The notes under the pieces are model-generated. The model made no database searches and was not told the origin of the DNA. It saw only the letters and a list, made by a program, of their open reading frames with translations. The translations under genes were made by a program, and so were the position numbers. DNA of 39,293 nucleotides. Source: a virus. The DNA is taken from positions 1 to 39,293 of the IMG/VR virus record IMGVR_UViG_3300045107_000831; one strand, 5' to 3'. Shown here one piece after another: positions 1-19,372 of this stretch (its first letter is position 1; each line of letters starts with the position of its first letter).

Positions 1-648
1 TCAACTATTGGGGCGTCCTCCCACGGGCCGCAGCGGGGCCGGCCTTTCCGCCCATAGCGCGTCGAGGACGGCCCTGATCGCAGCGTCGGCCGACACGTGA
101 AACCACTCGCCCTCCAGCCGGTGCTTGGCCAGAATCTCGTGGGCCCGTTGCTCGACCTTCTTCGACCGGATCTCGCTGCCGACCACGAATAGATGCAGCC
201 GCAGGTCGCGCCCCGATCCGCCCACCAGGTCGAGCAGCCGCTTGCCGGGGCTCCTGCTGATGCCGATCTTCTGCGGCCCGTCGTGGCTGCCGATGACGTA
301 GACGCCGAGCGGATGATGGCCGCCCAGGGAGCGGTCCGGCAGGCTGTCCAGCTCGCGGTCGAGGCGGCGCGGCCACACGAGCTCGACGTCCTCCGCTGGC
401 ACCTCCTGCGCCGTGCGGACCCGCACGAGCGGCGCGGGCGGCGCCGCGGCCGCCGGCAGCCGCCCGCGCGCCGCGTCGATTCGCCTGTTGATCGCCTCGG
501 CTGCGGCGATCGCCTCGCCGCGCGCGTCGGGCAGGCGTTCCAGCTTCCAGCCCAGCGCCCGCAGGTCGGCGCTCGGCTGCCAGTAGAAGCGCGGCGGCTC
601 GCCGGCGGCGCCGGGCTTCTCGACGAAGTAGCGGATCCTGTGCTTCAC
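1..648 (-). CDS. GIY-YIG (T5orf172/Mug113-like) protein with integrase-type N-terminus
   Basis: A 215-residue protein with a GTG start and a TGA stop on the first bases of the window. The C-terminal half (about 115-200) has a GIY-YIG-like core: GVYVIG at 115, KIGIS at 127, an Arg near 137, a Glu near 167 in a predicted helix, and EGEWFHVS at 180. This is the arrangement of T5orf172/Mug113 proteins, which are predicted nucleases or nucleic-acid binders. The first 65 residues (RYFVEKPG, FYWQPSA, LGWK, IAAAEAINR) are clearly homologous to the N-terminus of the integrase at 2901-4142. The start overlaps the end of the upstream gene by 4 bases, so the two are probably co-translated. The domain call is fairly sure; nuclease activity and target are unknown. 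Confidence 0.85.
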   Translation of the reverse strand: MKHRIRYFVEKPGAAGEPPRFYWQPSADLRALGWKLERLPDARGEAIAAAEAINRRIDAARGRLPAAAAPPAPLVRVRTAQEVPAEDVELVWPRRLDRELDSLPDRSLGGHHPLGVYVIGSHDGPQKIGISRSPGKRLLDLVGGSGRDLRLHLFVVGSEIRSKKVEQRAHEILAKHRLEGEWFHVSADAAIRAVLDALWAERPAPLRPVGGRPNS

Positions 649-929: not shown

Positions 930-1077
930 GGCAACGCCCTTCGGCTGGCGATTGCCGGCGCGCCCGTGCTTTCCAAGGCACCTGGCGCCCCGGGGGTTGG
1001 AAACCCGGCCGAAGACGGGCCGACGGCCTTTAGGCTTGCGCCCTGGACATAGCCGCCGCCCCCGGAACATAGGCATG

Positions 1078-1137
1078 AAAAAGCCGCCAGGCGGGGCGGG
1101 TCCGCTTCGGTCGGAGTTTCCAAGCTCCGAGGCGGAC
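1078..1137 (-). terminator. Intrinsic terminator after the integrase/ParB operon
   Basis: Directly behind the stop of the 102-aa gene, read on the minus strand, comes a large hairpin: arms 1132-1137/1100-1105 (GTCCGC with GCGGAC) and 1125-1129/1112-1116 (CTCCG with CGGAG). A second GC hairpin follows (1095-1099 with 1084-1088) and then five U residues (1082-1078). The second hairpin plus U-run fits a Rho-independent terminator. It separates the integrase operon from the distal gene pair at 1-929. The rest of 930-1077 shows no gene I can support. Confidence 0.55.
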
Positions 1138-1138
1138 T

Positions 1139-1447
1139 CTACCCCTCGCCGGCCTTGGTCGCAAGGTCGAGCCGCGCCAGCATCTCGCCGGCGACCTTGC
1201 GAGCCGCCTCGAGCGTCGGCGCCGCCTGCACCGCGGCAAGCGTCTCGCGTGCCCAGGATTCGAGGATGATCCGCTCACCACGAAGCACGCTGACCTGCTG
1301 TTTGAGAACGTCAGCTTCCGGCGTGGCGTCGAGCACAGCCCGGTAGGCGCGCTCGAACACCGCCGCGCTGTTTCCGCCGATCTGGCGCGCCCAGGTGATC
1401 CGGCTGGCATGGAGCAGGGCTTCGATCTTCCGGTCGACGTCGCTCAT
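1139..1447 (-). CDS. Hypothetical helical protein, 102 aa
   Basis: Start ATG at 1447 overlaps the ParB stop as ATGA (1444-1447), which fixes the start. The protein begins MSDVDRKIEALLHASR and is almost entirely predicted helix (Ala, Glu, Arg and Leu rich, no Pro or Gly breaks in the middle), possibly a short coiled coil around residues 40-75. I do not recognise a family. It is the last gene before the terminator at 1078-1137, in the integrase-ParB transcription unit. Translation coupling to ParB suggests a related job, but no function can be given. Confidence 0.65.
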   Translation of the reverse strand: MSDVDRKIEALLHASRITWARQIGGNSAAVFERAYRAVLDATPEADVLKQQVSVLRGERIILESWARETLAAVQAAPTLEAARKVAGEMLARLDLATKAGEG

Positions 1448-2904
1448 GCCGCGGTACTCACCCCCGCCGCTTGCCGCGTCGGCAAGGCCTCTTCCTCGTT
1501 GTCGCCGGCGGCGGGCTCGGGGCGCAGGTGCTCCGGCAGCTCGATGCCGTAGCGCTCGGCGAGCGCCGGAGTTGCGGAATCGCGGGCGGGCTCCCACCGA
1601 TCAAAGGCGTACCGACCGGCTTGCTGGGCGGCGAGAGCGACCAGCTCGGGCTCCGAAAGGGCGGCAAGCGCCGTCCAGATTGCGCGGGGATGGCGCGCCT
1701 CGTGCGGCAACTCGAGGGTTTCGCCGACGTCGTACGAGTCGGTGGCCTGCAGCAGCACGCGCAGCAGCTCCAGCGGGGGCTGTTCGCGCAGGGCGGCGAC
1801 CAAGTCGGCCTCGAAGCGCTCCTCGGCCGCGCGCGCGCGCTCGATCCGCTCCTGCCGCTCCTTCCAATCCGTGTCCGCGCCGTGGCCGGCTGGGGCGGCC
1901 TTTGCGGCCTTCACCAAGCCCGTCTTGACGTTGAGCGAGCCGTCAGGCGCCAGCACCACCACGGCGCCGGCGGCCTTGCGGTCCTTCGAGCGCCCGGGCT
2001 CGTACTCGTAGCTCTTGAACCAGTGCTCCTCGAGCTTGGCCCAGTGCCACTCCTTGCGCAGCGCGGCGACCTTCTCCTTCGCCGCCTGCTTCTGCAACCG
2101 CATGAACTCCTGCCGATCGGCGAGCCAGACCTCGCCGCTGTCGTCGAGCTCGACGCGCTCGCCCTGGTACTGCTCGAGCGGGAAGGCCGCGCGGCTCGCC
2201 GGAACCATGCCGCTGATCACGCGGTCGCGGACCTGGTCGGGGTGGCTCATCCAGGGCTTGCCGATCTCGGCGAGCACATTGCGCTGCAGCTGGGGGTCCG
2301 CCGCGGTCAGGAATCGCGCCTGCTCGATGCGCAGCCGGCCGTCGGCGATCGCCGCCTGCAGCTCGGGCTCGAGCTTCGTCACCAGGGCGACGCGCTGCTG
2401 CACGTAGCGCTGCGTCCGGCGGATCCGCTCGGCGATCGCCGCGGTCGACCAGCGGGCCGGGTCGAGGTCACGCAGAGCGCGGAAGGCCTCGCCCTCCTCG
2501 ATCGGCGAGATGTCCTGGCGCTGCAGGTTCTCGAGCAGCGTGATCGCCCGCGTGGCGACGTCGTCGGCATCGATGACCCGGCACGGGATGATGGCGGCGC
2601 CGGCGTCCCACTGGTCGCGCTCCCACAGCAGGCTGAGCGCGCGGTACCGGCGCTCGCCGGCGACGATCTCGTAGCACGGGCGATCGCTGAGCGGCGGCGG
2701 CGCCGGCGTGGAGCGCGGCCGCACCACCAGGTTCTGCAGCAGCCCGTCGCTGGCGATCGACGCCGCGAGCTCCTCGAGCGCCGTCGCGTCGAAGGCCTTG
2801 CGCGGGTTCAGTGCCGAAGGAAACAGCTGGACGAACGCCAACATCACGATCGCCGGCTCGGTGGCCGTCGGCGAACGGCGTTCGCCCTGGGTCTTCGCCT
2901 TCAT
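1444..2904 (-). CDS. ParB/RepB/Spo0J-like partition nuclease-domain protein
   Basis: A 486-residue protein. The N-terminal ParB-type domain is clear: LNPRK at 32-36, GLLQNLVVRP at 54-63, the GERRYRAL box at 83-90, and ENLQRQDISPIEEGEAF from 125. A HTH-like region follows (about 150-190; IAERIRRTQRYVQQRVALV), as in chromosomal and plasmid ParB. The C-terminal ~280 residues are longer than in typical ParB and contain a Lys/Arg/Glu-rich helical segment. The Met at 2904 is chosen because ATGA overlaps the integrase stop; the longer upstream reading frame lies inside the integrase. No ParA partner is visible, which fits an integrated phage using a ParB-like nuclease or DNA-binding protein rather than plasmid partition. 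ParB domains bind CTP; whether this one does is unknown. Confidence 0.9.
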   Translation of the reverse strand: MKAKTQGERRSPTATEPAIVMLAFVQLFPSALNPRKAFDATALEELAASIASDGLLQNLVVRPRSTPAPPPLSDRPCYEIVAGERRYRALSLLWERDQWDAGAAIIPCRVIDADDVATRAITLLENLQRQDISPIEEGEAFRALRDLDPARWSTAAIAERIRRTQRYVQQRVALVTKLEPELQAAIADGRLRIEQARFLTAADPQLQRNVLAEIGKPWMSHPDQVRDRVISGMVPASRAAFPLEQYQGERVELDDSGEVWLADRQEFMRLQKQAAKEKVAALRKEWHWAKLEEHWFKSYEYEPGRSKDRKAAGAVVVLAPDGSLNVKTGLVKAAKAAPAGHGADTDWKERQERIERARAAEERFEADLVAALREQPPLELLRVLLQATDSYDVGETLELPHEARHPRAIWTALAALSEPELVALAAQQAGRYAFDRWEPARDSATPALAERYGIELPEHLRPEPAAGDNEEEALPTRQAAGVSTAA

Positions 2905-4142
2905 GCCTGCTCTCCCTCCTTCGTCGCCGGCGCGCGGTCGCGCGCCTCTTCCCACGCGACCAGCTTCGCGATCGCCTTGCTCGCCATCTCGCCCGACGTT
3001 GCCAGGTAGTGCTTGAGGATCCCGTAGACGCTACGCTCGCTGTGGCCGCTGATGGCGCAGATCTCGGGCACGGTGCAGCCGGCCTCGGCCAGGTTGGTGA
3101 CCGCGGTGTCGCGCAGGTCCATGTACCAGACGTCGGCGAGCGGGCACTTCGCCGGCGTCATCGCCTCGCGGCCCTCGGCCGCGGCGGCCGGGCGGTCGCG
3201 GCGGCACCACTCGGCAATCGCCTCGTCGCGCACCGCGGCGAAGTGGTGGCGGAAATTGTCGCTGCCGTAGCCGCGGCCGGTCTCCTCGCTGACCACGATC
3301 TCCGGCGCCCGGCAGCCATGCGCGTCGAGGCGGGCCCGCGCGGCCGCCAGGCGCTCGACCAGGCGCGGCACGGCCGGCGCGTCGATCCAGGCGCCGCGCT
3401 TGCTCTGCCGCAGCCGGATGCGCTTGTCCTGGTAGCGCACCCACGGCAGGCGCAGCACGTCGCCCTGGCGCTGGCCGACATAGAGGGCGAGCAGCACGGC
3501 GTCGCCGATCGACGGCCGCTCGAGCAGGTCGGCGACCTCGACGACGATGTCGACCTCGGCCGGCGTCCAGATCCGCAGGCGCGGCTCGGTGCCGACCAGG
3601 CCGGGCTTTTCGAAGGGGTTGCTGGCGACCAGCTCGTGGTCCCAGGCGAACTTGAAGAGCAGCCGGGCGACGCGCATGACGGCGTTGGCCTTGGCCGGCG
3701 TCGCCTGCTGCATGCTGGCGTAGAACTTCTGCGCCAGGGCCCGGCCGATGGTGCGGGCGGGCGCGTCGCCGGCCCACTCCGTGACGATGCCGAGGCACCA
3801 TTCGTAGTCGTAGCGGGTCTTCGGCGCGAGCTCGCGGAAGCGGGGCGACAGGCGATAGCGCTGGATCAGCTCGGCGACGGTCACCGGCGCGGCCACCTTC
3901 GGCGCCGGCAGCGTGCCGGCCGGCCCGGCGCCGAGGCGCCAGGCGTCGAGCTCGCGGTTCAGCGCCTCGGCCGCGGCGATCGCCGCGGCGCGGTCGGTGA
4001 TGGGATGGCCCTGGCGATCGGCGAGGCGCTGCGGCTTCCAGCCGAGCTCGCGCAGCGCGGCCGAGGGCTGCCAGTAGAAGCGCGACGGCTCGCCGGCCGG
4101 GCCGGGCTTCTCGACGAAGTAGCGGACCTTGATGCGTGCCAT
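2901..4142 (-). CDS. int: Tyrosine recombinase (phage integrase)
   Basis: A 413-aa site-specific recombinase that should integrate and, with an excisionase, excise the prophage at the tRNA-Arg site found at 38675. N-terminal arm-binding-type region 1-70, core-binding domain about 88-175 (TVAELIQRYRLSPRFRELAPKT), catalytic domain 190-400. Catalytic residues seen: Arg225 (YVGQRQGD), Arg344 (DLRDTAVT), His367 (ISGHS) and nucleophile Tyr379 (LKHYLA). The first position of the usual H-x-x-R box is Met341 rather than His. The ATG at 4142 directly abuts the TAG of the upstream 69-aa gene, and the 3' end overlaps ParB as ATGA. It lies in a leftward early operon. The N-terminal 65 residues recur in the GIY-YIG protein at 1-648. 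Confidence 0.96.
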   Translation of the reverse strand: MARIKVRYFVEKPGPAGEPSRFYWQPSAALRELGWKPQRLADRQGHPITDRAAAIAAAEALNRELDAWRLGAGPAGTLPAPKVAAPVTVAELIQRYRLSPRFRELAPKTRYDYEWCLGIVTEWAGDAPARTIGRALAQKFYASMQQATPAKANAVMRVARLLFKFAWDHELVASNPFEKPGLVGTEPRLRIWTPAEVDIVVEVADLLERPSIGDAVLLALYVGQRQGDVLRLPWVRYQDKRIRLRQSKRGAWIDAPAVPRLVERLAAARARLDAHGCRAPEIVVSEETGRGYGSDNFRHHFAAVRDEAIAEWCRRDRPAAAAEGREAMTPAKCPLADVWYMDLRDTAVTNLAEAGCTVPEICAISGHSERSVYGILKHYLATSGEMASKAIAKLVAWEEARDRAPATKEGEQA

Positions 4143-4352
4143 CTACCTGCTCCGAAGCCAGTCATGGGCGGCGGCGATCGCCGCCTCGACGGTGTCGCCG
4201 GCGAAGCCCTCCCGCCGGCCTCTCTCGAGATCGAGCCACACGATCATGCCGTCATCGCCGATCTCGGTGGTCGCATGGGCGAACGCGACTCCGGATGCAC
4301 GAGCCGCGCTGGCCAGCGCCATCATGGCCGGCCCGATCGCGGCGCTGTCCAT
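4143..4352 (-). CDS. Hypothetical protein, 69 aa
   Basis: Starts at ATG 4352, which shares one base with the TGA of the upstream HTH gene (TGATG), and ends immediately before the integrase ATG. The sequence (AAIGPAMMALASAARASG, then VAFAHATTEIGDDGMIVWLDLE, then a C-terminal helix ending AAIAAAHDWLRSR) suggests a small alpha/beta protein. I do not recognise the family. Position between a putative excisionase and the integrase suggests an accessory role in recombination, but this is only context. Confidence 0.6.
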   Translation of the reverse strand: MDSAAIGPAMMALASAARASGVAFAHATTEIGDDGMIVWLDLERGRREGFAGDTVEAAIAAAHDWLRSR

Positions 4353-4636
4353 CACGCCGCCTCGCCGGCGACGGCCGCCGCGACCTGCGGCAGCCGGGCC
4401 ATCAGCTTGGCGCGCCAGGCGGCGTCCTCGTCCGCCGGCGCTGCGGCCGGCGCCAGGCCCGGGCGCTGCGCGCGCTTCCAGGCCTCGATCGCCTCGGGGT
4501 CCCACACGTTGCCGCAGCCGGCGAGCGGCGGCGGGAAGCCGTGCCGCTCGATCAGCCGCTTCTTGTTCCGGTGGAACCACTCCGGGCCGTGGCCGAGCTC
4601 GCGCGCGACCTCGGGGATGCGGAGCGCCGCCGTCAT
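4352..4636 (-). CDS. AlpA/excisionase-like HTH DNA-binding protein
   Basis: A 94-residue protein. Residues 5-55 look like a winged or MerR/AlpA-type helix-turn-helix: LRIPEVARELGHGPEWFHRNKKRLIE, then a short wing (GFPPPLAGCGNVW) and an EAIEAWKRAQ helix, the typical order in AlpA/Xis-type proteins. It lies one small gene upstream of the integrase in the same operon, where an excisionase or directionality factor is expected. The start at 4636 is set by ATGA overlap with the upstream gene. The HTH assignment is moderately sure; the excisionase role is inferred from position. Confidence 0.72.
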   Translation of the reverse strand: MTAALRIPEVARELGHGPEWFHRNKKRLIERHGFPPPLAGCGNVWDPEAIEAWKRAQRPGLAPAAAPADEDAAWRAKLMARLPQVAAAVAGEAA

Positions 4637-4848
4637 GGCCGCGCCCGCCGCACGCCCGCCGCCGGCACCCACTTCGGCCCGGCGGTGAAGGACACCAGGA
4701 TCGAGTGCGGCAGCGGGCACATCACGCTGCCGCACTCGAAGTGGAACCCGTCCTGCTGAGGCACCAGCACCAGGTCGCCGAAGGCGAGCGGCTCGGCGGC
4801 GGCCGGCGCCGGCCGGCCGCGCTCGAGCGCGAGCAGCTCGCCGCTCAC
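4633..4848 (-). CDS. Hypothetical protein, 71 aa
   Basis: A small protein with the segment PLAFGDLVLVPQQDGFHFECGSVMC in the middle, suggesting a compact beta-fold, and a basic C-terminus. No family recognised. Both ends overlap neighbours by four bases (ATGA), which strongly supports it as translated. It sits in the leftward early operon between the 128-aa protein and the HTH protein. Confidence 0.6.
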   Translation of the reverse strand: MSGELLALERGRPAPAAAEPLAFGDLVLVPQQDGFHFECGSVMCPLPHSILVSFTAGPKWVPAAGVRRARP

Positions 4849-5231
4849 GACGCGCCCCCGCGGACGGCGACCGAGGGCGACAGCGGCGCGCCCGAGGTCA
4901 GCAGCAGCCCCGCCTCGGCGCGGTCTAGCGCCTCGATCGCCGCCACGGCCAGCGTGGCGATGATCAGCATGCGGCGCCGGTACTCCGCCGGGTCGAGCAG
5001 CACGCCGCTGCCGCCGACCTGCGCGTCGGCGGTGACGTGATGGTCGATCAGCAGGGCGAGCCAGGCCTCGGGCCCGTGGTGGTCGTCGTGCTCGAGCGTG
5101 TAGCCGCGGGCCAGCTGGGCGATGCGCTCGCCGGCGATCTCCGACAGCACCGGCAGCGTGCCGGTCGGCGTCTCGCGCGGCAGGGCGAGCAGCGGCGTGG
5201 TGTGAAAGCCGGAAGCCTGGGACTCGGTCAT
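4845..5231 (-). CDS. Phage protein with GYT-EHDD motif, 128 aa
   Basis: The segment ISE/ERIAQLARGYTLEHDDHHGPEAWLALLIDHH resembles a motif common in small phage early proteins, in which a helix with E-R-I/Q precedes G-Y-T-x-E-H-D-D. The C-terminal part has LLDPAEYRRRMLIIATLAVAAIEALDRAE, an amphipathic helix. I know the motif as widespread in phage genomes but without an assigned activity. The clustered His and Asp residues could bind metal. It overlaps the 71-aa gene by ATGA and starts 3 bases after the 96-aa gene. Confidence 0.65.
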   Translation of the reverse strand: MTESQASGFHTTPLLALPRETPTGTLPVLSEIAGERIAQLARGYTLEHDDHHGPEAWLALLIDHHVTADAQVGGSGVLLDPAEYRRRMLIIATLAVAAIEALDRAEAGLLLTSGAPLSPSVAVRGGAS

Positions 5232-5234
5232 GGC

Positions 5235-5525
5235 TCAGGCCTCCAGCCGGGCCTGCCGCGCCATGCGGCGGGCGGCCTCGAGGTGCTGCGTCAGCTCGGC
5301 GGGGCTGAACCCGGCGGCCAGCAGGTCGGCTTCGGTGCAGGCGCCGGCGGCCGACGTGCGGTCGATCAGCACGCGCGAGATCTCGGCCGGCGTCGCCGGC
5401 CGCGGGGGCGCCGCGCGCCGCGCCGCCGGCGGCGTCCAGGTCTTCATCGCCGCCGCGGCGGCCTCGCGCTCGGCAGCCGGGATCCGACCGTCATAGCGCG
5501 CCTCGAGCAGGTCCATCGGTGACAT
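5235..5525 (-). CDS. Hypothetical protein, 96 aa
   Basis: The reading begins MSPMDLLEARYDGRIP; the start could also be the second Met three codons later. An Ala/Pro/Arg-rich linker (residues 27-45) joins an N-terminal helix to a C-terminal segment (SAAGACTEADLLAAGFSPAELTQHLEAARRMARQ) that looks like a small helical, possibly HTH-like, domain. No family recognised. It is second in the leftward operon. Confidence 0.55.
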   Translation of the reverse strand: MSPMDLLEARYDGRIPAAEREAAAAAMKTWTPPAARRAAPPRPATPAEISRVLIDRTSAAGACTEADLLAAGFSPAELTQHLEAARRMARQARLEA

Positions 5526-5534
5526 GGGCTCGCC

Positions 5535-5702
5535 TCAGAAGTTGTAGGGCTGGATGCCGCGCTCGCGGCAATAGGCGTTGGCCTCGCGCTTGCCGGGCAC
5601 GATGACCTTCTCGCCGGCCTGGTACTCGGCGCCGCTGCAGGGGCGGGCGCAGACGGTCAGCTGGTAGAAGCCGCCGCGGATCTTCGTGATGTATGCGACC
5701 AT
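5535..5702 (-). CDS. Small protein, 55 aa, first gene of the left operon
   Basis: A short gene with an excellent ribosome binding site (GAGGGAG, six bases before ATG 5702) on the minus strand. The protein begins MVAYITKIRGGFYQLTVCARP and ends RGIQPYNF. It has three Cys (residues 18, 22 and 46) and an even, globular composition, consistent with a small beta-rich domain. No function recognised. Being the first gene behind the left promoter and the leader terminator, it would be made earliest after induction, the position that antitermination or host-takeover proteins occupy in other temperate phages. That role is speculation. Confidence 0.65.
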   Translation of the reverse strand: MVAYITKIRGGFYQLTVCARPCSGAEYQAGEKVIVPGKREANAYCRERGIQPYNF

Positions 5703-5728
5703 CGGGATCTCCCTCGCCGGCCTCCTGG

Positions 5729-5762
5729 AAAAATCGCCCCGGGGCGGGTGTGCCCCGGGGCA
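5729..5762 (-). terminator. Leader terminator/attenuator of the left operon
   Basis: On the minus strand two copies of GCCCCGGGGC (5761-5752 and 5745-5736) are separated by six bases. Each is self-complementary, so together they form a 10-bp GC stem, and they are followed by GATTTTT. This is a textbook intrinsic terminator about 27 bases before the first start codon of the left operon and about 44 bases after the promoter -10. Full expression of the operon would need read-through or antitermination. Confidence 0.7.
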
Positions 5763-5805
5763 GTTCCAACAGGGAGGCGCCGACCGCAGCCGGTCGGCGA
5801 GGAAA

Positions 5806-5834
5806 ACGCTAGTGGGGTATTTTTACCCCGTCAA
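5806..5834 (-). promoter_or_regulatory. Left early promoter (PL-like)
   Basis: Read on the minus strand: TTGACG (5834-5829), a 17-base spacer, TAGCGT (5811-5806). A 16-bp perfect operator palindrome fills the spacer and a second operator overlaps the -35. The -35 sequence and operator layout match the right promoter at 7194-7222. It would drive the leftward genes from 5702 to at least 1139. Confidence 0.6.
5814..5829. promoter_or_regulatory. Operator OL1 (repressor site)
   Basis: GGGGTATTTTTACCCC, with perfect 6-base arms around TTTT. It occupies the spacer of the left promoter, where repressor binding would block RNA polymerase. It shares the pattern GGGGYA-N4-TRCCCC with the site at 7202-7217. 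Confidence 0.65.
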
Positions 5835-5848
5835 GGTAAATTTGCCCC
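5833..5848. promoter_or_regulatory. Operator OL2 (repressor site)
   Basis: AAGGTAAATTTGCCCC, an imperfect palindrome with AAATTT at the centre, overlapping two bases of the -35 of the left promoter. Its centre is 19 bases from that of OL1. It resembles the AAATTT-centred sites at 7144 and 7179. Confidence 0.58.
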
Positions 5849-5898
5849 GATAGGCTCGCGGCGTTACGATGGTCGCCTTCGATCGAGGAGGGACGATG

Positions 5899-6459
5899 TC
5901 AGATCAAGCCGCGGGCGCGGGCCTGAGCGTAGGCCTGGAGCGCTATTTCGAAGAACTCGCGCTTGTCGAGCCGCCGAAGCTGCTCGAGGCCGTCAACTGG
6001 GATGCGCTGGTAGGCGCCTGCCGTGATGGCTTCCGAGAGCCAATCGGGCTCATGGATCGTAAGCCACTGGAGGAACACCAGCTCGACGTCGGAGAAACGT
6101 TCCCCGAGATGCTGAAGCCCCTGTAGCGCGACCACCAGGAACAGCACGGTACTGACCTGCGTGAACTCGATCACGCCGTGGGGATCCCGATCCGCGTGCT
6201 TGAAGAAGTTCATCGCCTGCTTGAGCAGGCCGACGAGCTCGGCGCGCTTCTCGCTCCTTATGCGGGGCGAGTCGAACAGCAACTCCGGACCGCCGCGCCC
6301 GGCGTTGATGTCATGGACGACCTGGTGGGCAGCCGCAGCAAGCGAGTGTACCGCGACCGGATCTCTCTCCGCGAACCACAGCTCGATCGCGCAATCGAGC
6401 TGGCGACGGGCGGCGTCCAGCTTGGAGATCCGGATCTGGCTGCGATCGACGCCGCTCAT
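5899..6459 (-). CDS. Conserved 186-aa protein co-transcribed with the repressor
   Basis: The start at 6459 overlaps the repressor stop by ATGA, so the gene is in the lysogenic (cI) transcript and should be expressed in the prophage state. The protein is mostly helical: KLDAARRQLDCAIELWF at 13-29, DPVAVHSLAAAAHQVVHDI next, then LVGLLKQAMNFFKHADRDP around 80-98, and a hydrophobic stretch VSTVLFLVVALQGLQHLG. I recall related stand-alone bacterial proteins with the same A-R-x-L-x-x-A-I-x-L-x-F, L-A-x-A-A and N-F-F-K-H-A-D motifs, all uncharacterised. The first helices are reminiscent of HEPN-type folds, but no R-x4-6-H motif is seen. A superinfection-exclusion or lysogenic-conversion role is plausible from context only. 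Confidence 0.8.
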   Translation of the reverse strand: MSGVDRSQIRISKLDAARRQLDCAIELWFAERDPVAVHSLAAAAHQVVHDINAGRGGPELLFDSPRIRSEKRAELVGLLKQAMNFFKHADRDPHGVIEFTQVSTVLFLVVALQGLQHLGERFSDVELVFLQWLTIHEPDWLSEAITAGAYQRIPVDGLEQLRRLDKREFFEIALQAYAQARARGLI

Positions 6460-7139
6460 CCCAGGTTCCTGCCCAGCCACACCACCCGGCCGATGACGTC
6501 GAGCGCCTCGGGATCGACGTCGCTGTAGGTGGGGTATCGCGGGTTGTCCGAAGTGACGGTCAGCCGTTTGGTCGCCGGGTGCCGCGAGACGCGCTTGACC
6601 TGCAGCTCGTCGCCGAGGCGGATCACGTAGATCCCGTCGCGGCCGACGATCCGCACCGATCGGTCGACCAGGACCTGGTCGCCGTCATGCAGCGTCTCCC
6701 ACATCGAATCGCCGGCGACGGTGATCAGGGCCAGCACGTCGAGGCTGGCGCGGGTGAGACGGGACAGCCACTGGGTGCGGTGCAGGCCGAAGGTCTCCGG
6801 CGCCTCGTCGCCGTTGAGCGCGCCGGCGCCGGCGGCGGCCCGGATGTCGTACACGGGGACGGCCGAGTAGGCCTCGCCGGCGAAGTCGAGCGTTTCACGT
6901 GGCCCGGCCTGGATCATGGCGCGGCGCGGCTGGTGATCGCCGGTCAGGTCGGCCGGGGTGCACCCCAGCACCGCCGCGAGTCTCTGCAGCGTCGTGTAGC
7001 GCGGGCTGACCGAGCGACCCGCCAGGATCGCCTTGACCGCCGTCTCGTTGAGCTTCGCGCGCAGCGACAGCTGCCGGGCCGACAGCCCGAGGGCCGCCAT
7101 CCGCCGTTCCAGTTCCCGACCGAGCGCTGACGTGGCCAT
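6456..7139 (-). CDS. cI: CI/LexA-type self-cleaving repressor
   Basis: A 227-aa phage repressor. Residues 1-66 form an XRE-type HTH (LGLSARQLSLRAKLNETAVKAILAGRS). The C-terminal S24 peptidase domain has catalytic Ser145 in VAGDSM and Lys182 in ELQVKRVSR. The likely autocleavage Ala-Gly lies in IRAAAGAGALNG (about 103-104). It should bind the five operators at 5814-5848 and 7144-7217, keep both early promoters off, and be inactivated by RecA in the SOS response. The ATG at 7139 has no Shine-Dalgarno; an operator ends only 5 bases upstream, so the mRNA may be leaderless, as lambda cI is. The 3' end overlaps the 186-aa gene. Confidence 0.95.
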   Translation of the reverse strand: MATSALGRELERRMAALGLSARQLSLRAKLNETAVKAILAGRSVSPRYTTLQRLAAVLGCTPADLTGDHQPRRAMIQAGPRETLDFAGEAYSAVPVYDIRAAAGAGALNGDEAPETFGLHRTQWLSRLTRASLDVLALITVAGDSMWETLHDGDQVLVDRSVRIVGRDGIYVIRLGDELQVKRVSRHPATKRLTVTSDNPRYPTYSDVDPEALDVIGRVVWLGRNLG

Positions 7140-7143
7140 GACC

Positions 7144-9342: not shown

Positions 9343-9539
9343 GCAACGACCGCCTGGTCCGCCGCGCCGCCGCCGCGCGCAAGGCGTGGGCCAGCCGCAA
9401 GCGCGCCGCGGCACGCCGCGCCGCCGATCGTGATCTCCAGCCTAGTCACCTGACCCGCCGGGCCGGAGCGGCCGGCGCCGCCGACTGCCCCTCGGCTGCG
9501 CCGGCCACCCCCCTCACAACTGGAGATGCCAAATGCTGA
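9339..9539 (+). CDS. Small basic protein, 66 aa
   Basis: The N-terminal 35 residues are strongly basic (NDRLVRRAAAARKAWASRKRAAARRAADRD) and would bind nucleic acid; the rest is Ala/Pro/Ser/Thr-rich. It overlaps both neighbours: ATGA at the start, and 7 bases with the RyR-domain gene at the end. The Arg-rich N-terminus recalls RNA-binding arginine-rich motifs such as lambda N, but no sequence identity supports that. Confidence 0.5.
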   Translation: MSNDRLVRRAAAARKAWASRKRAAARRAADRDLQPSHLTRRAGAAGAADCPSAAPATPLTTGDAKC

Positions 9540-9892
9540 TCATGGATCGCTGGACCATCGCCCGCGTCTGTCACGAAGCCAATCGCGGCTTCTGCATAGC
9601 GCTCGGCGACACCTCGCAGCCGGCTTGGGAGGATGCTCCCGAGTGGCAGCAGACGTCGGCCTTCGACGGCGTGGCGTTCAACCTCGCCAACCCGGATGCG
9701 CCGCCGTCCGCTTCCCACGACAACTGGCTGGCCGGGAAGATGGCCACCGGGTGGATCTATGGCCCGGTGAAGGATCCGGCCGCGAAGACGCATCCCTGTT
9801 GCGTGCCGTACGACCAGCTGCCGCCCGAGCAGCGCGCCAAGGACCACCTCTTCAAGGCCATCGTCGGCGCGCTCGCGCCGTTCGCGGTCTAG
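9533..9892 (+). CDS. RyR-domain protein
   Basis: A 119-aa protein with a Shine-Dalgarno GGAG before ATG 9533. Residues 35-110 carry a RyR domain: EWQQTSAFDGVAFNLANPDAP, SHDNWLAGKMATGWIYGPVKDPAAKTHPCCVPYDQLPPEQRAKDHLFKAIV. The SHDNW, GW-YG-VKD, HP-x-x-V-x-Y-x-x-L and K-D-x-x-F-x-x-I-V motifs of this family are all present. RyR domains are known from ryanodine receptors and are common in phages and in bacterial conflict systems, where a ligand-binding or sensing role has been proposed but not shown. It lies directly before the primase gene, so it is an early gene. Confidence 0.9.
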   Translation: MLIMDRWTIARVCHEANRGFCIALGDTSQPAWEDAPEWQQTSAFDGVAFNLANPDAPPSASHDNWLAGKMATGWIYGPVKDPAAKTHPCCVPYDQLPPEQRAKDHLFKAIVGALAPFAV

Positions 9893-9894
9893 GC

Positions 9895-10950
9895 TTGTCG
9901 CGCCCGGTCGACATCCGGGAGCTGGTCGCGCTGCTGGCGGCGCGGGCGCCCGAGCTCTGCCAGGCCGTGTTTCCGGCCGGCGTGCGCGAGGGCCGGGAAT
10001 GGCGCGTCGGCAGCCTCGCCGGCGAGGCCGGCCGGTCGCTCGCCGTCCATCTGGGCGGCGAGCGCGCCGGCATCTGGGCCGACTTCGCCTCGGGCGAGTG
10101 CGGCGACGCGCTCGACCTGGTGGCGCAGGCGATGTGCCGCGCCGACAAGGCCGAGGCGATCAAGTGGGCGCGGTCCTGGCTCGGGCTCGACGGGAACGAT
10201 GCGGCTGCGCTCGAGCGCAGCCTCGCGGCGCGCCGGCGCCAGGCCGAGGCGCCGCCGGCGCCGGCCGACGGCGGCGATCGGCGCGACGGCGCCTTCCGGC
10301 TCTGGCTGGCCGCCCAGGAGAAGCTCGCCGGCACGCCGGTCGACCGCTACCTCGCCGGGCGCGGCATCGAGCTCGCGGGGCTCGGCCGGCAGCCGCGGTC
10401 GCTGCGCTACCACCCGTCGCTATGGAACGGCGAGAGCCGGCGCGCCTGGCCGGCGATGCTCGCCGGCGTCGTCGACGCCAAGGGCAACACCGTCGCCGTG
10501 CACCGGACCTGGCTCGAGGCGCGGCCCGACCTCACGGTGCGCAAGGCACCGCTCGCCGACCCGAAGATGACGCTCGGCTCCTACAAGGGCGGCTGCATCC
10601 GGCTCTGGCGCGGCGCCTCGGGCAAGCAGCTCGCCGACGCGCCGGCCGAGGCGGTGGCGATCACCGAGGGGATCGAGGACGGGCTCAGCGTCGCGGTGGC
10701 GCGGCCCGATCTGCGGGTGCTGGTCGCCGTCGCGCTCGCCAACATGGCGGCGCTCGAGCTGCCGCCGCAGCTCTCGCCAGTAATCCTCTGCGCGCAGCAG
10801 GACGGCGCCAACGCCGCGACCGCGAAGGCGCTCGACCGCGCGATCGCGCGCTTCCTCGGCGAGCGGCGCCGCGTGCAGCTCGCCTGGACGAAGGGCGCGA
10901 AGGACATGAATGAACTCCTATGCCGCGGCCGCGGCGCGGGGGCAGCCTAG
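9895..10950 (+). CDS. Toprim-domain DNA primase
   Basis: A 351-aa protein. I choose TTG 9895, two bases after the RyR stop, because the family's N-terminal helix (DIRELVALLAARAPELC) starts here; the open frame upstream lies antiparallel or out of frame with the RyR gene. The N-terminal part (EWRVGS, RSLAVHL, GIWADFASGECGDALDLVA) is a primase-associated domain of phage and plasmid Toprim proteins. The middle (FRLWLAAQEKLAGTPVDRYLAGRGI) and the Toprim segment (AITEGIEDGLSVAVA, Glu258) follow. The expected acidic D-x-D motif is instead CAQQD at 299-303, so one metal-binding Asp is replaced by Gln. The C-terminus GAKDMNELL is typical. It synthesises primers with the ATPase at 11930-13726. Confidence 0.87.
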   Translation: MSRPVDIRELVALLAARAPELCQAVFPAGVREGREWRVGSLAGEAGRSLAVHLGGERAGIWADFASGECGDALDLVAQAMCRADKAEAIKWARSWLGLDGNDAAALERSLAARRRQAEAPPAPADGGDRRDGAFRLWLAAQEKLAGTPVDRYLAGRGIELAGLGRQPRSLRYHPSLWNGESRRAWPAMLAGVVDAKGNTVAVHRTWLEARPDLTVRKAPLADPKMTLGSYKGGCIRLWRGASGKQLADAPAEAVAITEGIEDGLSVAVARPDLRVLVAVALANMAALELPPQLSPVILCAQQDGANAATAKALDRAIARFLGERRRVQLAWTKGAKDMNELLCRGRGAGAA

Positions 10951-11001
10951 ATGTGCAACGCCTGTAACAACCACTGCGATCTCGGCCTCGAGCCATGCTA
11001 G
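10951..11001 (+). CDS. Possible Cys-rich 16-residue micro-ORF
   Basis: ATG directly after the primase TAG, reading MCNACNNHCDLGLEPC and stopping inside the start of the next gene. Four Cys in 16 residues (C-x2-C-x3-C-x6-C) with a His suggest a zinc-binding knuckle, and a GGGGG block lies 6-10 bases upstream of the ATG. It is too short to be confident; it may only couple translation between primase and the ParB-like gene. Confidence 0.3.
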   Translation: MCNACNNHCDLGLEPC

Positions 11002-11933
11002 CGCGGCGCACCAACCTGCTGTCAGCGCCGGTGCCGCGGCTCGCCGAGGCGCCGGAAGCCGCCCGCGTGCTTGCCGCGCCTTCGGTGCGGCCGAAGACGG
11101 CGATCGATCCCGGGCCGCCGCCGCGCATCGAGTGGCTGCCGGTCGCCGGCCTCACGATCGACGATCGCTACCAGCGCGACATCTCCGGCCGGGCCAGCCA
11201 GGCGCTTGTCCGGCGCATCGCCGCGAGCTGGCGGTGGGCGCTGTTCCAGCCGCTGACGGTGGCCGAGATGTCCCGCGAGGCGGTCGACGAGGGCACGCCC
11301 GGGGAAGGCCGGCCGGTGCACGCGGTGATCGACGGGCAGCACCGGCTCGAGGCGGCCCGGCGCTGCGGCTTCGAGCGGCTGCCCTGCTACATCATCGACG
11401 CTGCCAGCGTCGAGCTGCAGGCCGCGTCCTTCATCGCGCTCAATCGCGACCGGCGCGCCATGCTGCCGACCCAGCTGCACCGCGCGGCGGTGGTCGCCGG
11501 CGACGCCGACGCGGTGCAGATCGAGCGCGTCTGCGGCCTGGCCGGCGTCACCATCGCGAGCACCGGCCGACCGGAGGGGCTGCCGCCCGGCCAGACCCTC
11601 GCGGTCCAGAAGATCCGCTTCTGCATTGCGCGCTACGGCGAGCGGATCGCCGCCGATGCGCTGCGCCTGGTGCGCGAGGCGGCCGGGCCGACCCGCGACC
11701 AGCTGCGGGCCGAGATCGTCGCCGGCGTCGCCTGGCTGCTGTCGCGGCGCGACTGGTGCCCGCCCGGCGGCTTCGACGAGGCCACGTTCCGCGGCGTGCT
11801 CGGGCGGCAGAAGGCACAGGACTGGCTGCACAAGGCGCGCGAGCGCAAGCGCGAGGTTGGCGGCAGCACCGTCGAGGCCTTCGCCGAGCTGTTCACGCGC
11901 GCCTACCGCAAAGGGCAGGGGGAACAGCGTTGA
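10995..11933 (+). CDS. ParB-like nuclease-domain protein (second copy)
   Basis: A 312-aa protein with a ParB N-terminal-type domain: IEWLPVAGLTIDDRYQRDIS, LVRRIAASWRWALFQPLTVAE, AVIDGQHRLEAARRCGFERLPCYI, LNRDRRAML. The D-G-Q-H-R motif replaces the G-E-R-R of classical ParB, as in stand-alone ParB/Srx-fold phage proteins. The C-terminal half is helical and charged. It is different from the ParB at 1444-2904 in length and motif, so not a recent duplicate. It lies between primase and helicase, which suggests a role in replication or DNA processing. Confidence 0.85.
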   Translation: MLARRTNLLSAPVPRLAEAPEAARVLAAPSVRPKTAIDPGPPPRIEWLPVAGLTIDDRYQRDISGRASQALVRRIAASWRWALFQPLTVAEMSREAVDEGTPGEGRPVHAVIDGQHRLEAARRCGFERLPCYIIDAASVELQAASFIALNRDRRAMLPTQLHRAAVVAGDADAVQIERVCGLAGVTIASTGRPEGLPPGQTLAVQKIRFCIARYGERIAADALRLVREAAGPTRDQLRAEIVAGVAWLLSRRDWCPPGGFDEATFRGVLGRQKAQDWLHKARERKREVGGSTVEAFAELFTRAYRKGQGEQR

Positions 11934-13726
11934 CGGTACCGGACGGCAACGTCGAAGGCGTGCGGGCGGCGCTCGACGGCGCCGTCGAGGTCACTTCGAT
12001 CCCCGACCCGGGCGGGCCGGCCGGGCCGTCGCGCGAGCGGCGGTCCCAGCTGCCCGAGGACTGCCCGGTCGAGCCGCTCGGGATCCTCGACGACGTTGCC
12101 TATTACCTCGACGATTCGCGCCAGCTGCGGGCGCTGCCGGCGCGCGAGCATAGTCGGCTCGGGGTGCAGGCACTGTTCGGGACCCGGATCGAGCTGCTGT
12201 ATCGCGACTGGCCGCGGGTCAACGCCGAGGGCGAGACCACCGGCTGGCGGCCGGAGAAGGCGGCCGAGGCGCTGATGACGGAGGCCGCGCGCCGCGGCGT
12301 CTGGAACCCGATGGAGCGAGTGCGCGGCGTCGGCTGCTGGCTCGGCGCGGCCGGGAATTTGATCCTGCATTGCGGCGACCAGGTGTGGGTCGGGCCGGGC
12401 GGTGCCGACGCCGGCGGCTGGCGCCAGCCGGGCCCTATCGATGCGCAGGTCTATCCGGCGGCGCCGGCGCGCCCGCGCTTCGCCCCGACCCGGGCGGCGG
12501 GTGGCGAGCGCGGCCCCGCGCACGAGCTGCTGGCGCTGCTCAACACCTGGCGCTGGCGCCGCGGCGCGGTCGACGCGCAGCTGCTGCTCGGCTGGATCGC
12601 CGCGGCCATGCTCGGCGGCGCGCTGCAGTGGCGCCCGATGGCCTGGATCACCGGCGATCGGGCGACCGGCAAGAGCACGCTGCACCGGCTGCTGCAGTGG
12701 GTCTTCGACGACGCGATCGTCTCGGTGTCGGACGCGTCGGGCGCCGGCATCTGGCAGAAGCTCGGGCATGCCGCGCTGCCGGTCGCGATCGACGAGCTCG
12801 AGGCCGACGAGGACAACCGGCGCGCCTACCAGATCGTCAAGCTGGCGCGCCAGGCGGCGAGCGGCGGCGTGGTGCTGCGGGGCGGCGCCGACCACAAGGG
12901 CGCCGAGTTCACCGCGCGATCGTGCTTTCTGTTCTCCTCGATCCTGATCCCGCCAATGCTCGGGCAGGACCGCAGCCGGATCGCCATCCTCGAGCTCGAG
13001 CCGCTGGTCGCCGAGGGCGAGGTCTTCCGCGGGCCGCCGGCGCTCGACCGCCGCAAGCTGGCGGCGCTGGGCGCCGCGCTGCGCCGCCGCCTGGTCGATG
13101 GCTGGCACCGCTGGGACGCCACTCTCGAGGCCTACCGGCAGGCCTGCGCGGCGGCGGGGCAGGGCGGCCGCGGCGCCGACCAGCTGGGCACTCTCGGCGC
13201 CGCCGCCGACCTGCTGCTGCACGACCAGCTGCCGAGCGGCGACGAGCTCGAGGCCTGGGCGGCCGGGGTGGCGAGCGCCAGCGCGGACACTCCCGACGAC
13301 GCCGACCACCAGCGCTGCGTTGCCCACCTGGTCACCTCGGTGGTCGACGTCTACCGCGGCGGCGCGCGCCTGGTGCTCAACCAATGGCTGCTGCGCGCCG
13401 CCGGCGACGCGCGCGGCCTCGAGCCGGGCAGCCAGGTCGAGGCCGTCGAGGTCATCGGCACCTTCGGCCTGCGCATCCATCGCGACGCCGAGGGCCAGCG
13501 CTGGCTGGCGGTCGCCAACTGCCACCAGGGCCTCGCCGCCCTGTTCGCCGGCACCCATTGGGCCGCGCGCAGCGGCGCCGCCGGCGTCTGGGCGCAGGCG
13601 CTGCGCCGGGTGCCTGGCGCGCGCTCGCATGGCGGGCTCAGGTTCAACGGCGCCTACGCGCGATGCACGCTGCTGCCGCTCGAGGCGGTGCTGCTGTCGG
13701 AGGAGGGGGGCGATCATGCGCCCTGA
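11930..13726 (+). CDS. AAA+ primase/helicase-type ATPase
   Basis: A 598-aa replication protein. The start is taken as TTG 11930, which overlaps the ParB-like stop as TTGA and has an AGGGGG ribosome binding site. The N-terminal ~180 residues (GILDDVAYYLDDSRQLRALPAREHSRLGVQALFG) resemble the regulatory part of phage D5/DUF927-like helicases. Walker A is GDRATGKST at 242-250, the Walker B-like VAIDELE at 285-291, followed by sensor-like segments (SSILIPPMLGQDRSRIAILELEPL). It should unwind DNA for phage replication together with the Toprim primase. Whether it also carries primase activity cannot be told. Confidence 0.87.
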   Translation: MTVPDGNVEGVRAALDGAVEVTSIPDPGGPAGPSRERRSQLPEDCPVEPLGILDDVAYYLDDSRQLRALPAREHSRLGVQALFGTRIELLYRDWPRVNAEGETTGWRPEKAAEALMTEAARRGVWNPMERVRGVGCWLGAAGNLILHCGDQVWVGPGGADAGGWRQPGPIDAQVYPAAPARPRFAPTRAAGGERGPAHELLALLNTWRWRRGAVDAQLLLGWIAAAMLGGALQWRPMAWITGDRATGKSTLHRLLQWVFDDAIVSVSDASGAGIWQKLGHAALPVAIDELEADEDNRRAYQIVKLARQAASGGVVLRGGADHKGAEFTARSCFLFSSILIPPMLGQDRSRIAILELEPLVAEGEVFRGPPALDRRKLAALGAALRRRLVDGWHRWDATLEAYRQACAAAGQGGRGADQLGTLGAAADLLLHDQLPSGDELEAWAAGVASASADTPDDADHQRCVAHLVTSVVDVYRGGARLVLNQWLLRAAGDARGLEPGSQVEAVEVIGTFGLRIHRDAEGQRWLAVANCHQGLAALFAGTHWAARSGAAGVWAQALRRVPGARSHGGLRFNGAYARCTLLPLEAVLLSEEGGDHAP

Positions 13727-17188: not shown

Positions 17189-19372
17189 ATGCCCGTGATG
17201 GATGAGGCCAAGCTGCGAGCGATCGTGGCGGCGGAGAAGGCGCAGGCGCTGTCGGCGCTCAACGCCTCCGACCTGTCGCGGCAGCGGGCCCGGGCGATGG
17301 ACTACTACCTCGGCGACATGACCGCCGACATGCCGTCGGCGCAGGGGCGCAGCGCCGCGGTCTCGAGCGACGTCGCCGACACCGTCGAGTCGATCATGCC
17401 GGCGCTGATGAAGATCTTCGCCGCCGGCGACGAGATCGTCCGCTTCAACCCGGTCGGCCCGGAGGACGAGGACGCGGCGGCGCAGGAGACGGACTACGTC
17501 AACCACGTCTTCTGGCAGGACAACCCGGGCTTCCTGATCCTCTACACGATGTGCAAGGACGGGCTGCTGCAGAAGACCGGGATCGTCAAGAGCTGGTGGG
17601 AGATCAGCACCAGCCTCGAGCGCGAGACCTACACCGGCCAGCCGCAGCACGTCCTCGAGCTGCTGTCGCGCCAGGACGGGGTCGAGCTGGTCGAGCACAC
17701 GGAATATCCCGATCCGGCCGTCGCCGGGCTGCAGGCGCTGTCGGCGGCCGGTGACGGCTTTCCCGGCGCCGGCGCCCTGCCGATGCTGCACGACTTCACC
17801 CTGGTGCACCGGCGCAAGGTCGGCCGGGCCCGCGTGGTGAACGTGCCGCCCGAGGAGTTCCTGATCGCGCGGCGGGCCCGCTCGGTCGCCGATTCGCCCT
17901 ATTGCGGCCACCGGGTGCGCAAGACGGTCTCCGAGCTGCTCGAGCAGGGCTATGACCGCGAGACGGTCGAGGCGCTGCCGACCAGCACCTGGACCGACGA
18001 CACCGAGGAGGCCACGGCGCGGGCCAAGGGCGTGCGCACCACGGGCGGCGCGTCGGAGTCGATCGGGGACGGCACGGGCTCGGGCGAGTCCAACCCGGCG
18101 ATGCGGCTGGTCGACGTCACCGAGCACTACGTCCGGGTCGACTATGACGGCGACGGGATCGCCGAGCTGCGCAAGGTGACGACGGCGGGCGGCTCCGACG
18201 TGCTGCTCGACAACGAGCCGTGGGAAGGCGGCATGCCGTTCGCCCTGGGCTGCCCGATCCTGCTGCCGCACCGGGCGATCGGCCTCGCGGTCGCCGACCT
18301 GGTGATCGACATACAGCGCATCAAGACCGCCCTCTACCGCGCGGTGCTCGACAACGCCTACTTCATCAACAACGGCCGCACCGAGGTCTCGGAGAGCCAC
18401 GCCGGCGAATACACGATCGACGACCTGCTGACCAACCGGCCGGGCGGCATCGTGCGGACCCGGATGCCGGGCGGCCTCACCCCGATGCAGACCCAGCCGA
18501 TCGGGCCGACCATCTTCCCGCTGCTCGAATATGTCGACCAGGCGAGCGAGCGGCGGACCGGCGTGGCGCGCGACTTCAACGGGCTCGACCCGCAATCGCT
18601 CGACCGGGCGACGGCGACGACGGTGCGCGCGCTGCAGACGGCGGCGCAATACCGCATCGAGCTGATCGCCCGGATCTTCGCCGAGACCGGGATCAAGGAC
18701 CTGTTCCTGCAGCTGCACCGGCTGATCCTGGTGCATGGAAGGGAGGAGCGGGCCCGCGTGCTGCGGCTGCGCGGACAGTGGGTCGAGGTCGACCCCTCGG
18801 ACTGGCGCGAGCGCAACGACATGACCGTCTCGGTCGGGCTCGGCACCGGCGACAAGGACCAGCAGCTGATGCACTTGCAGCAGATCCTCGGCATGCAGGT
18901 CCAGGCGCTGCAGCTCCAGGGCGGGCCGGGCGGTCCGATCGTCACGCTGCCGAAGATCCACAAGACCCTGACCGAGATCACGAAGAACGCCGGCTTCCGC
19001 AACCCCGACGATTTCTGGGGCGACCCCTCGACGGCGCCGCAGCCGCAGCCCGGCGCCGGCGGCCCGGGCGGCATCCCGCCGGAGGCGCATGCCACGGTGA
19101 TCGCCGCTCAGCTCGACGCCGAGGTCTCCCGCCAGAAGGTCGAGCAGGAGCCGGCGGTCGCCGCCATGCGCGCGCGCGTCAAGGCCGAGAGCGACGCCGA
19201 GATCGCGCGGATCAAGGCGGCGGCCGACATCGAGGTGGCGCGGATCAAGGCCGGGCTCGACCTGCAGGGCACGATTCAGGAGGCGGTGATCCGCGCCCTG
19301 GCCGCGGCGGGCGCCGCGCCGGCGCCGGCCGCGCCCCTGGGCTCGCCAATGACGAACGGAGGCACGGCATGA
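17189..19372 (+). CDS. P22-type portal protein
   Basis: A 727-aa protein, close to the length of P22 gp1. The N-terminal region (RQRARAMDYYLGDMTADMPSAQGRSAAVSSDVADTVESIMPALMKIF) and NPGFLILYTMCKDGLLQKTGIVKSWWE are typical of P22-like portals. The C-terminal 110 residues are a helical, Lys/Glu/Ala-rich segment with repeated EIARIKA and EVARIKA, expected to form the barrel or crown. It forms the dodecameric DNA channel at the capsid vertex and, with the ejection proteins downstream, identifies the phage as short-tailed. It ends in ATGA overlap with the next gene. Confidence 0.93.
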   Translation: MPVMDEAKLRAIVAAEKAQALSALNASDLSRQRARAMDYYLGDMTADMPSAQGRSAAVSSDVADTVESIMPALMKIFAAGDEIVRFNPVGPEDEDAAAQETDYVNHVFWQDNPGFLILYTMCKDGLLQKTGIVKSWWEISTSLERETYTGQPQHVLELLSRQDGVELVEHTEYPDPAVAGLQALSAAGDGFPGAGALPMLHDFTLVHRRKVGRARVVNVPPEEFLIARRARSVADSPYCGHRVRKTVSELLEQGYDRETVEALPTSTWTDDTEEATARAKGVRTTGGASESIGDGTGSGESNPAMRLVDVTEHYVRVDYDGDGIAELRKVTTAGGSDVLLDNEPWEGGMPFALGCPILLPHRAIGLAVADLVIDIQRIKTALYRAVLDNAYFINNGRTEVSESHAGEYTIDDLLTNRPGGIVRTRMPGGLTPMQTQPIGPTIFPLLEYVDQASERRTGVARDFNGLDPQSLDRATATTVRALQTAAQYRIELIARIFAETGIKDLFLQLHRLILVHGREERARVLRLRGQWVEVDPSDWRERNDMTVSVGLGTGDKDQQLMHLQQILGMQVQALQLQGGPGGPIVTLPKIHKTLTEITKNAGFRNPDDFWGDPSTAPQPQPGAGGPGGIPPEAHATVIAAQLDAEVSRQKVEQEPAVAAMRARVKAESDAEIARIKAAADIEVARIKAGLDLQGTIQEAVIRALAAAGAAPAPAAPLGSPMTNGGTA

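Follow-up and report, generated by a model that had tools for sequence, protein, structure and literature searches.

At the integrase-side end of the virus record analyzed here lies a gene for a chimeric nuclease, in which a GIY-YIG domain is joined to a copy of the N-terminal module of the phage's own tyrosine integrase. Because the protein is a chimera, comes near to identity with its own integrase in the shared module, has intact catalytic residues and recurs in the same arrangement in two other phages, we give an even chance to the reading that it is an att- or arm-site-directed two-domain nuclease of homing-endonuclease origin, whose module would target arm sites and whose nuclease would cut or nick there.

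A nuclease with the N-terminus of its own integrase

The window (the whole stretch of DNA analyzed, 39293 bases) comprises the entire virus record, which encodes two primase-like proteins and a portal protein (9526-13726 and 17189-19372) and therefore represents a tailed phage or prophage. The features that matter here are the following:

1..648, minus strand: chimeric GIY-YIG nuclease gene, 215 aa; it closes the record on the int side
463..648, minus strand: integrase-type putative arm-binding module of the nuclease (residues 1-62), from alignment and AlphaFold
316..462, minus strand: linker of the nuclease (residues 63-111), mostly disordered by prediction (AlphaFold, low confidence)
49..309, minus strand: GIY-YIG (MUG113/T5orf172) nuclease domain with intact catalytic residues, spanning residues 114-200
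968..1124, no strand: set of three short TTTCCAA-centered palindromes lying between nuclease gene and int operon; tentatively, arm-like sites
1444..2955, minus strand: ParB-like protein whose gene overlaps int at the latter's 3' end; L125 and L196 have a homologue next to int
2901..4142, minus strand: tyrosine integrase with the matching module, 413 aa
3936..4142, minus strand: putative N-terminal arm-binding module of the integrase (residues 1-69)
4352..4636, minus strand: excisionase-like small DNA-binding protein (phrog_66, E=0.0046, a weak match)

The nuclease gene has a GTG start codon, and its stop codon occupies bases 3-1, the exact record end; because the gene terminates exactly at base 1, the record was probably cut back to a gene boundary, leaving its own att site outside. 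The excisionase-like protein has homologues near int in relatives. In L125 and L196, too, int and an excisionase-like gene have a ParB-like gene next to them, which suggests an int-xis-ParB cassette.

The first-pass annotation had aligned the first 65 residues of the GIY-YIG protein with the integrase N-terminus and had found the underlying DNA similar, and both observations are borne out. BLASTP pairs nuclease residues 4-61 with residues 5-69 of the integrase at E=1e-19; in the best local alignment 42 of 58 residues are identical (72%), and the score of 209 is far beyond the maximum of 60 reached in 2000 shuffles. At the DNA level, 166 of 203 aligned bases are identical (82%), with the first ~60 nt almost unaltered; a 7-residue insert in the integrase module is absent from the GIY copy. 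Third-position GC does not separate the module from the nuclease part (p = 0.11).

The C-terminal part of the protein scores 39.5 bits against MUG113 (cut-off 22.3) and 26.9 bits against T5orf172 (cut-off 20); with both scores above the curated cut-offs, it is, by sequence criteria, a genuine GIY-YIG domain. Residues Y117, K127-I-G129, R137, E166, H170 and GEWF (G180-F183), invariant in the family alignment, are all kept, and the AlphaFold model consists of two confident domains with a low-confidence linker (residues 64-108) between them. Fold searches returned only weak matches to the GIY-YIG domains of UvrC and Slx1, with nothing significant for the module or the nuclease; PDB profile matches to clostridial toxins were short repeats of the toxin binding regions and irrelevant.

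An integrase domain outside integrases

Where else does the module occur? Profile scans covered viral contigs, GTDB genomes, and sets of 397 and 385 alphaproteobacterial genomes; outside the nucleases, all confirmed carriers are tyrosine integrases, in which the module stands N-terminal to the core-binding and catalytic domains, a distribution that speaks against a generic domain. A few of the lowest-scoring matches (e.g., L042 and L043) are due to chance.

The arm-binding domain of tyrosine integrases is N-terminal and highly variable, and consists of three strands and one helix (PMC8138268). In the AlphaFold model of the integrase module (pLDDT 87.8), strands span residues 9-12, 21-24 and, in a short stretch, ~38-41, and helices span residues 28-32 (short) and 51-69; the same layout is predicted for the nuclease module, so the two N-termini are not expected to fold differently. 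Like the described arm-binding domain (PMC8138268), the module is N-terminal, about 65 residues long, arranged as strands followed by a long helix, and found in phage integrases; unlike it, the module has no match to the Pfam arm-binding models (at E up to 10) and is also present outside integrases. A PDB fold search with the module gave no significant match, nor did comparison with a lambda integrase profile; profile comparisons of the two integrase module families described below, with each other and each with lambda integrase, were likewise not significant. Because no Pfam, PDB or lambda Int match is significant, the assignment of the module as an arm-binding domain draws on context and predicted fold: the first-pass reading of it as the arm-site DNA-binding part fits its N-terminal position and its modeled structure.

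The same fusion in other phages

A search for further non-integrase carriers of such modules, as the first-pass annotation had proposed, turned up two. Among 71 viral loci with this type of GIY-YIG domain, one additional carrier, L125, encodes its nuclease (5755-6315) directly behind its own integrase (4606-5754), and the GIY-YIG domain keeps all catalytic residues. The 3' half of tRNA-Lys(CTT), the att core, begins at 6406, 91 bp behind the nuclease, and this is the tRNA at which relatives lie. Immediately past it is an AlbA_2/Schlafen-type gene (L125:6482-7333), which probably belongs to the host side of att.

The second case, EBPR podovirus 2 (EBPR2), has a different nuclease and a module family that differs from that of the window integrase: gp50, an HNH protein scoring above the HNH_3 cut-off, carries at its C terminus a copy of the N-terminus of its own integrase, gp51 (25 of 45 residues identical; score 112 versus at most 43 in shuffles). 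The gp50 gene and int share a few bases, and about 71 bp separate the end of the gp50 gene from an annotated pseudo tRNA-Trp, the att tRNA copy; tRNA-Trp is the attachment site in a related Paracoccus phage, where the int-att interval holds no gene. Among the loci examined, 62 of the 62 other carriers of this second module type are integrases or truncated integrases.

The fusions in L125 and EBPR2 thus occupy the interval from int to the att tRNA and end 71-91 bp short of the tRNA; in Psul1, L198 and L199, int is only about 25-125 bp from att. The first-pass suggestion that the nuclease acts at the attachment region gains from these positions and from the module being otherwise an integrase N-terminus; for the window itself it finds no site to point to, att being outside the record. 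In L196, the int-to-tRNA interval that holds the nuclease in L125 contains a weak match to a Rha-type regulator (6505-7140), so the interval looks like a slot for accessory genes.

The three fusions seen combine two unrelated nuclease types and both domain orders. Viral contigs scanned with the nuclease or the integrase as a single sequence gave no match; in the profile scans, the carriers besides L125 and EBPR2 gp50 were all integrases; and full-length nuclease queries of the 397 and 385 alphaproteobacterial genomes retrieved no additional fusion. In L196, a weak module match (78 aa) is an artefact that comes from another gene read out of frame, and the module is absent from L207 and L215, both considered as possible fusions. 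With only three cases in large searches, the trait is therefore rare.

One capture or several?

The best match of each module is found next door: the window nuclease matches the window integrase, the L125 nuclease the L125 integrase, and gp50 matches gp51. Tree support for these own-integrase pairs is moderate. The window pair, together with one further integrase, is supported at 85/84 and 91/81, and the L125 pair at 98/90 in a 28-row tree, while a 37-row tree does not resolve it. The GIY modules of the window and L125 are only 38% alike, which points to either repeated capture or convergence on the local integrase. The trees do not resolve the GIY domains of the two nucleases as sisters; they do not reject a single origin of the two modules either (p 0.17 and 0.26), and are compatible with two captures as well as with a single fusion and later gene conversion. 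By this sequence evidence, either the module would have been captured repeatedly, or the modules would have been kept matched to the local integrase by gene conversion.

Divergence within the pairs differs in depth: dN and dS are 0.24 and 0.38 for the window modules, 0.44 and 1.9 for those of L125 (dN/dS about 0.23), and 0.65 and 1.8 for those of EBPR2 (dN/dS about 0.35). By these estimates the window pair is recent, and the L125 and EBPR2 pairs are older, with silent sites near saturation and the protein conserved.

Precedents for a borrowed DNA-binding domain

Odn (origin-directed nuclease, ICP1 gp88) joins a T5orf172 nuclease to a RepA_N domain like that of a satellite, and binds and cuts that satellite's origin (PMC8263062); Odn-like chimeras are thought to have arisen several times, with relatives in coliphages (PMC10448857). 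In both sources a T5orf172/GIY-YIG domain is combined with a copied DNA-binding domain of another mobile-element protein, whose target sites the nuclease inherits. The window protein has a matching composition, with a module homologous to that of the integrase, and may likewise inherit the integrase's target sites. It differs in what was copied: Odn took the RepA_N replication initiator of a foreign satellite, whereas the window protein took the putative arm-binding part of its own phage's integrase, and its cutting is only predicted. No RepA_N or other replication-initiator domain was found in the window nuclease. As far as sequence comparison goes, Odn is the closest precedent, and the window protein is another chimeric T5orf172 nuclease, not an Odn homologue.

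Free-standing T5orf172 homing endonucleases share with the window protein the nuclease family, the two-domain layout and an exchangeable DNA-binding part; in 200 of 229 that part is a CapR, DUF723 or DUF4397 zinc finger, and a few have RepA_N (PMC10448857). The excerpts of PMC8263062 and PMC10448857 name no integrase domain among T5orf172 binding domains, and a literature query joining "arm-binding domain" and "endonuclease" returned nothing related by title, which, given incomplete coverage, is weak evidence of novelty. HNH-AP2 homing endonucleases also combine a nuclease with a small DNA-binding domain, and gp50 has the same layout, with its integrase-type domain C-terminal; however, the gp50 domain matches the neighboring integrase and no AP2 model, and the window protein is a GIY-YIG rather than an HNH nuclease.

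What would the nuclease do?

Odn logic, applied here by analogy, predicts that the nuclease should go to integrase arm sites and cut. In the proposed mechanism, a flexible linker connects a GIY-YIG cutter of homing-endonuclease type with a duplicate of the putative arm-binding domain of the resident integrase; the module would bring the nuclease to the integrase's arm-type sites next to the att core, where it would cut or nick. Most likely it would be used on attP regions, either those of a co-infecting relative or those of an allele without the nuclease. Action there could (i) keep out a rival that needs the same att site, much as Odn acts at the origin of PLE satellites to exclude them; or (ii) lead to homing, the nuclease gene being copied into the target with the neighboring int-att segment. 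Control over the phage's own recombination would be a third conceivable benefit. The main difficulty for every cutting model is that the phage's own att sites should be targets too; they may be spared by integrase occupancy, or because the nuclease requires two sites together, as only uncut attP offers. A bolder version, which we consider rather doubtful, holds that prophages repeatedly furnish a homing-type nuclease with an arm-binding domain copied from their own integrase and so obtain attP-directed immunity: an incoming phage would be known by its intact two-armed attP, and the integrated prophage, its arms split between attL and attR, would be spared.

Homing genes usually cut close to their own location. 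The fusion could be a selfish homing endonuclease only, a T5orf172 gene that landed between int and att and recombined with the adjacent integrase gene to gain its DNA-binding end. It would spread through cleavage of gene-free alleles in their int-att region and bring the phage no benefit. T5orf172 and HNH are typical homing nucleases, with exchangeable binding domains and a place at recombination boundaries (PMC10448857), and the genes of L125 and EBPR2 are wedged into an int-att interval that is short in Psul1, L198 and L199; however, the presumed target is not obviously destroyed by the insertion, as it would be for the usual homing gene, and no two alleles were found that differ by the gene alone in otherwise similar sequence. 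We regard this explanation as possible, on the unlikely side. If instead the module occupied arm sites and modulated integration or excision, with the nuclease domain incidental or inactive, the gene's position near int would be in keeping, as arm-site binding steers the direction of recombination in lambda-type systems (PMC8138268); yet the GIY-YIG catalytic residues are all kept in both GIY cases, and the third case has a different nuclease, itself above the HNH_3 cut-off. Because a binder would not repeatedly need a nuclease, we think such a role very unlikely. A neutral by-product, in which the 5' end of int was duplicated by chance onto a passenger nuclease gene and the two proteins share no target, would agree with the rarity of the combination and with a window copy that is recent (dS 0.38) and near int, as local duplication predicts, but is quite improbable given three occurrences with two unrelated nucleases in both domain orders, each matching its own integrase, and a module protein conserved in the two older pairs though silent sites are near saturation.

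If action at att is the right reading, the Odn principle of a borrowed address label would extend from replication origins to integration sites, and would cover labels taken from the phage's own integrase as well as those taken from a rival. Such nucleases would be simple to find, as non-integrase proteins beside int that bear the N-terminus of the local integrase, and competition for att sites would become directly testable.

Candidate arm-type sites

Several relatives sit at a tRNA immediately behind int, either tRNA-Lys(CTT) or tRNA-Thr(CGT). Next to the att tRNA, also behind int, relatives have clusters of two to four GTTGGAA, often in the form GTTGGAATTCCAAC followed 16 bases later by a third copy. 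The 2 kb behind int, 27.7 of 223 kb, holds 34 of the 44 GTTGGAA (binomial p about 1e-22, for a motif chosen post hoc and with some loci being near copies). The GTTGGAATTCCAAC palindrome is conserved behind int in L197, L024, L025, L014, L020 and L021, usually with a further GTTGGAA-like copy nearby. By their sequence and position, the clusters are good candidates for arm-type sites of this alphaproteobacterial integrase family. GTTGGAA does not cluster in the window, L125, L200 or L208-L218; therefore, either specificity varies or the att regions lie outside those records.

The window palindromes at 968-1124 read GTGC-TTTCCAAG-GCAC, CCGGG-TTTCCAACC-CCCGG and CGGAG-TTTCCAAG-CTCCG, with different stems around a common center, and three of the four TTTCCAA in the whole 39-kb record fall in this interval. 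Behind int in L196 is GGAG-GTTCCAAG-CTCC, which resembles them. In EBPR podovirus 2, despite its different integrase module family, an inverted TTCCAAC / GTTGGAA pair (L005:2972-3002) lies directly at the end of the pseudo tRNA-Trp.
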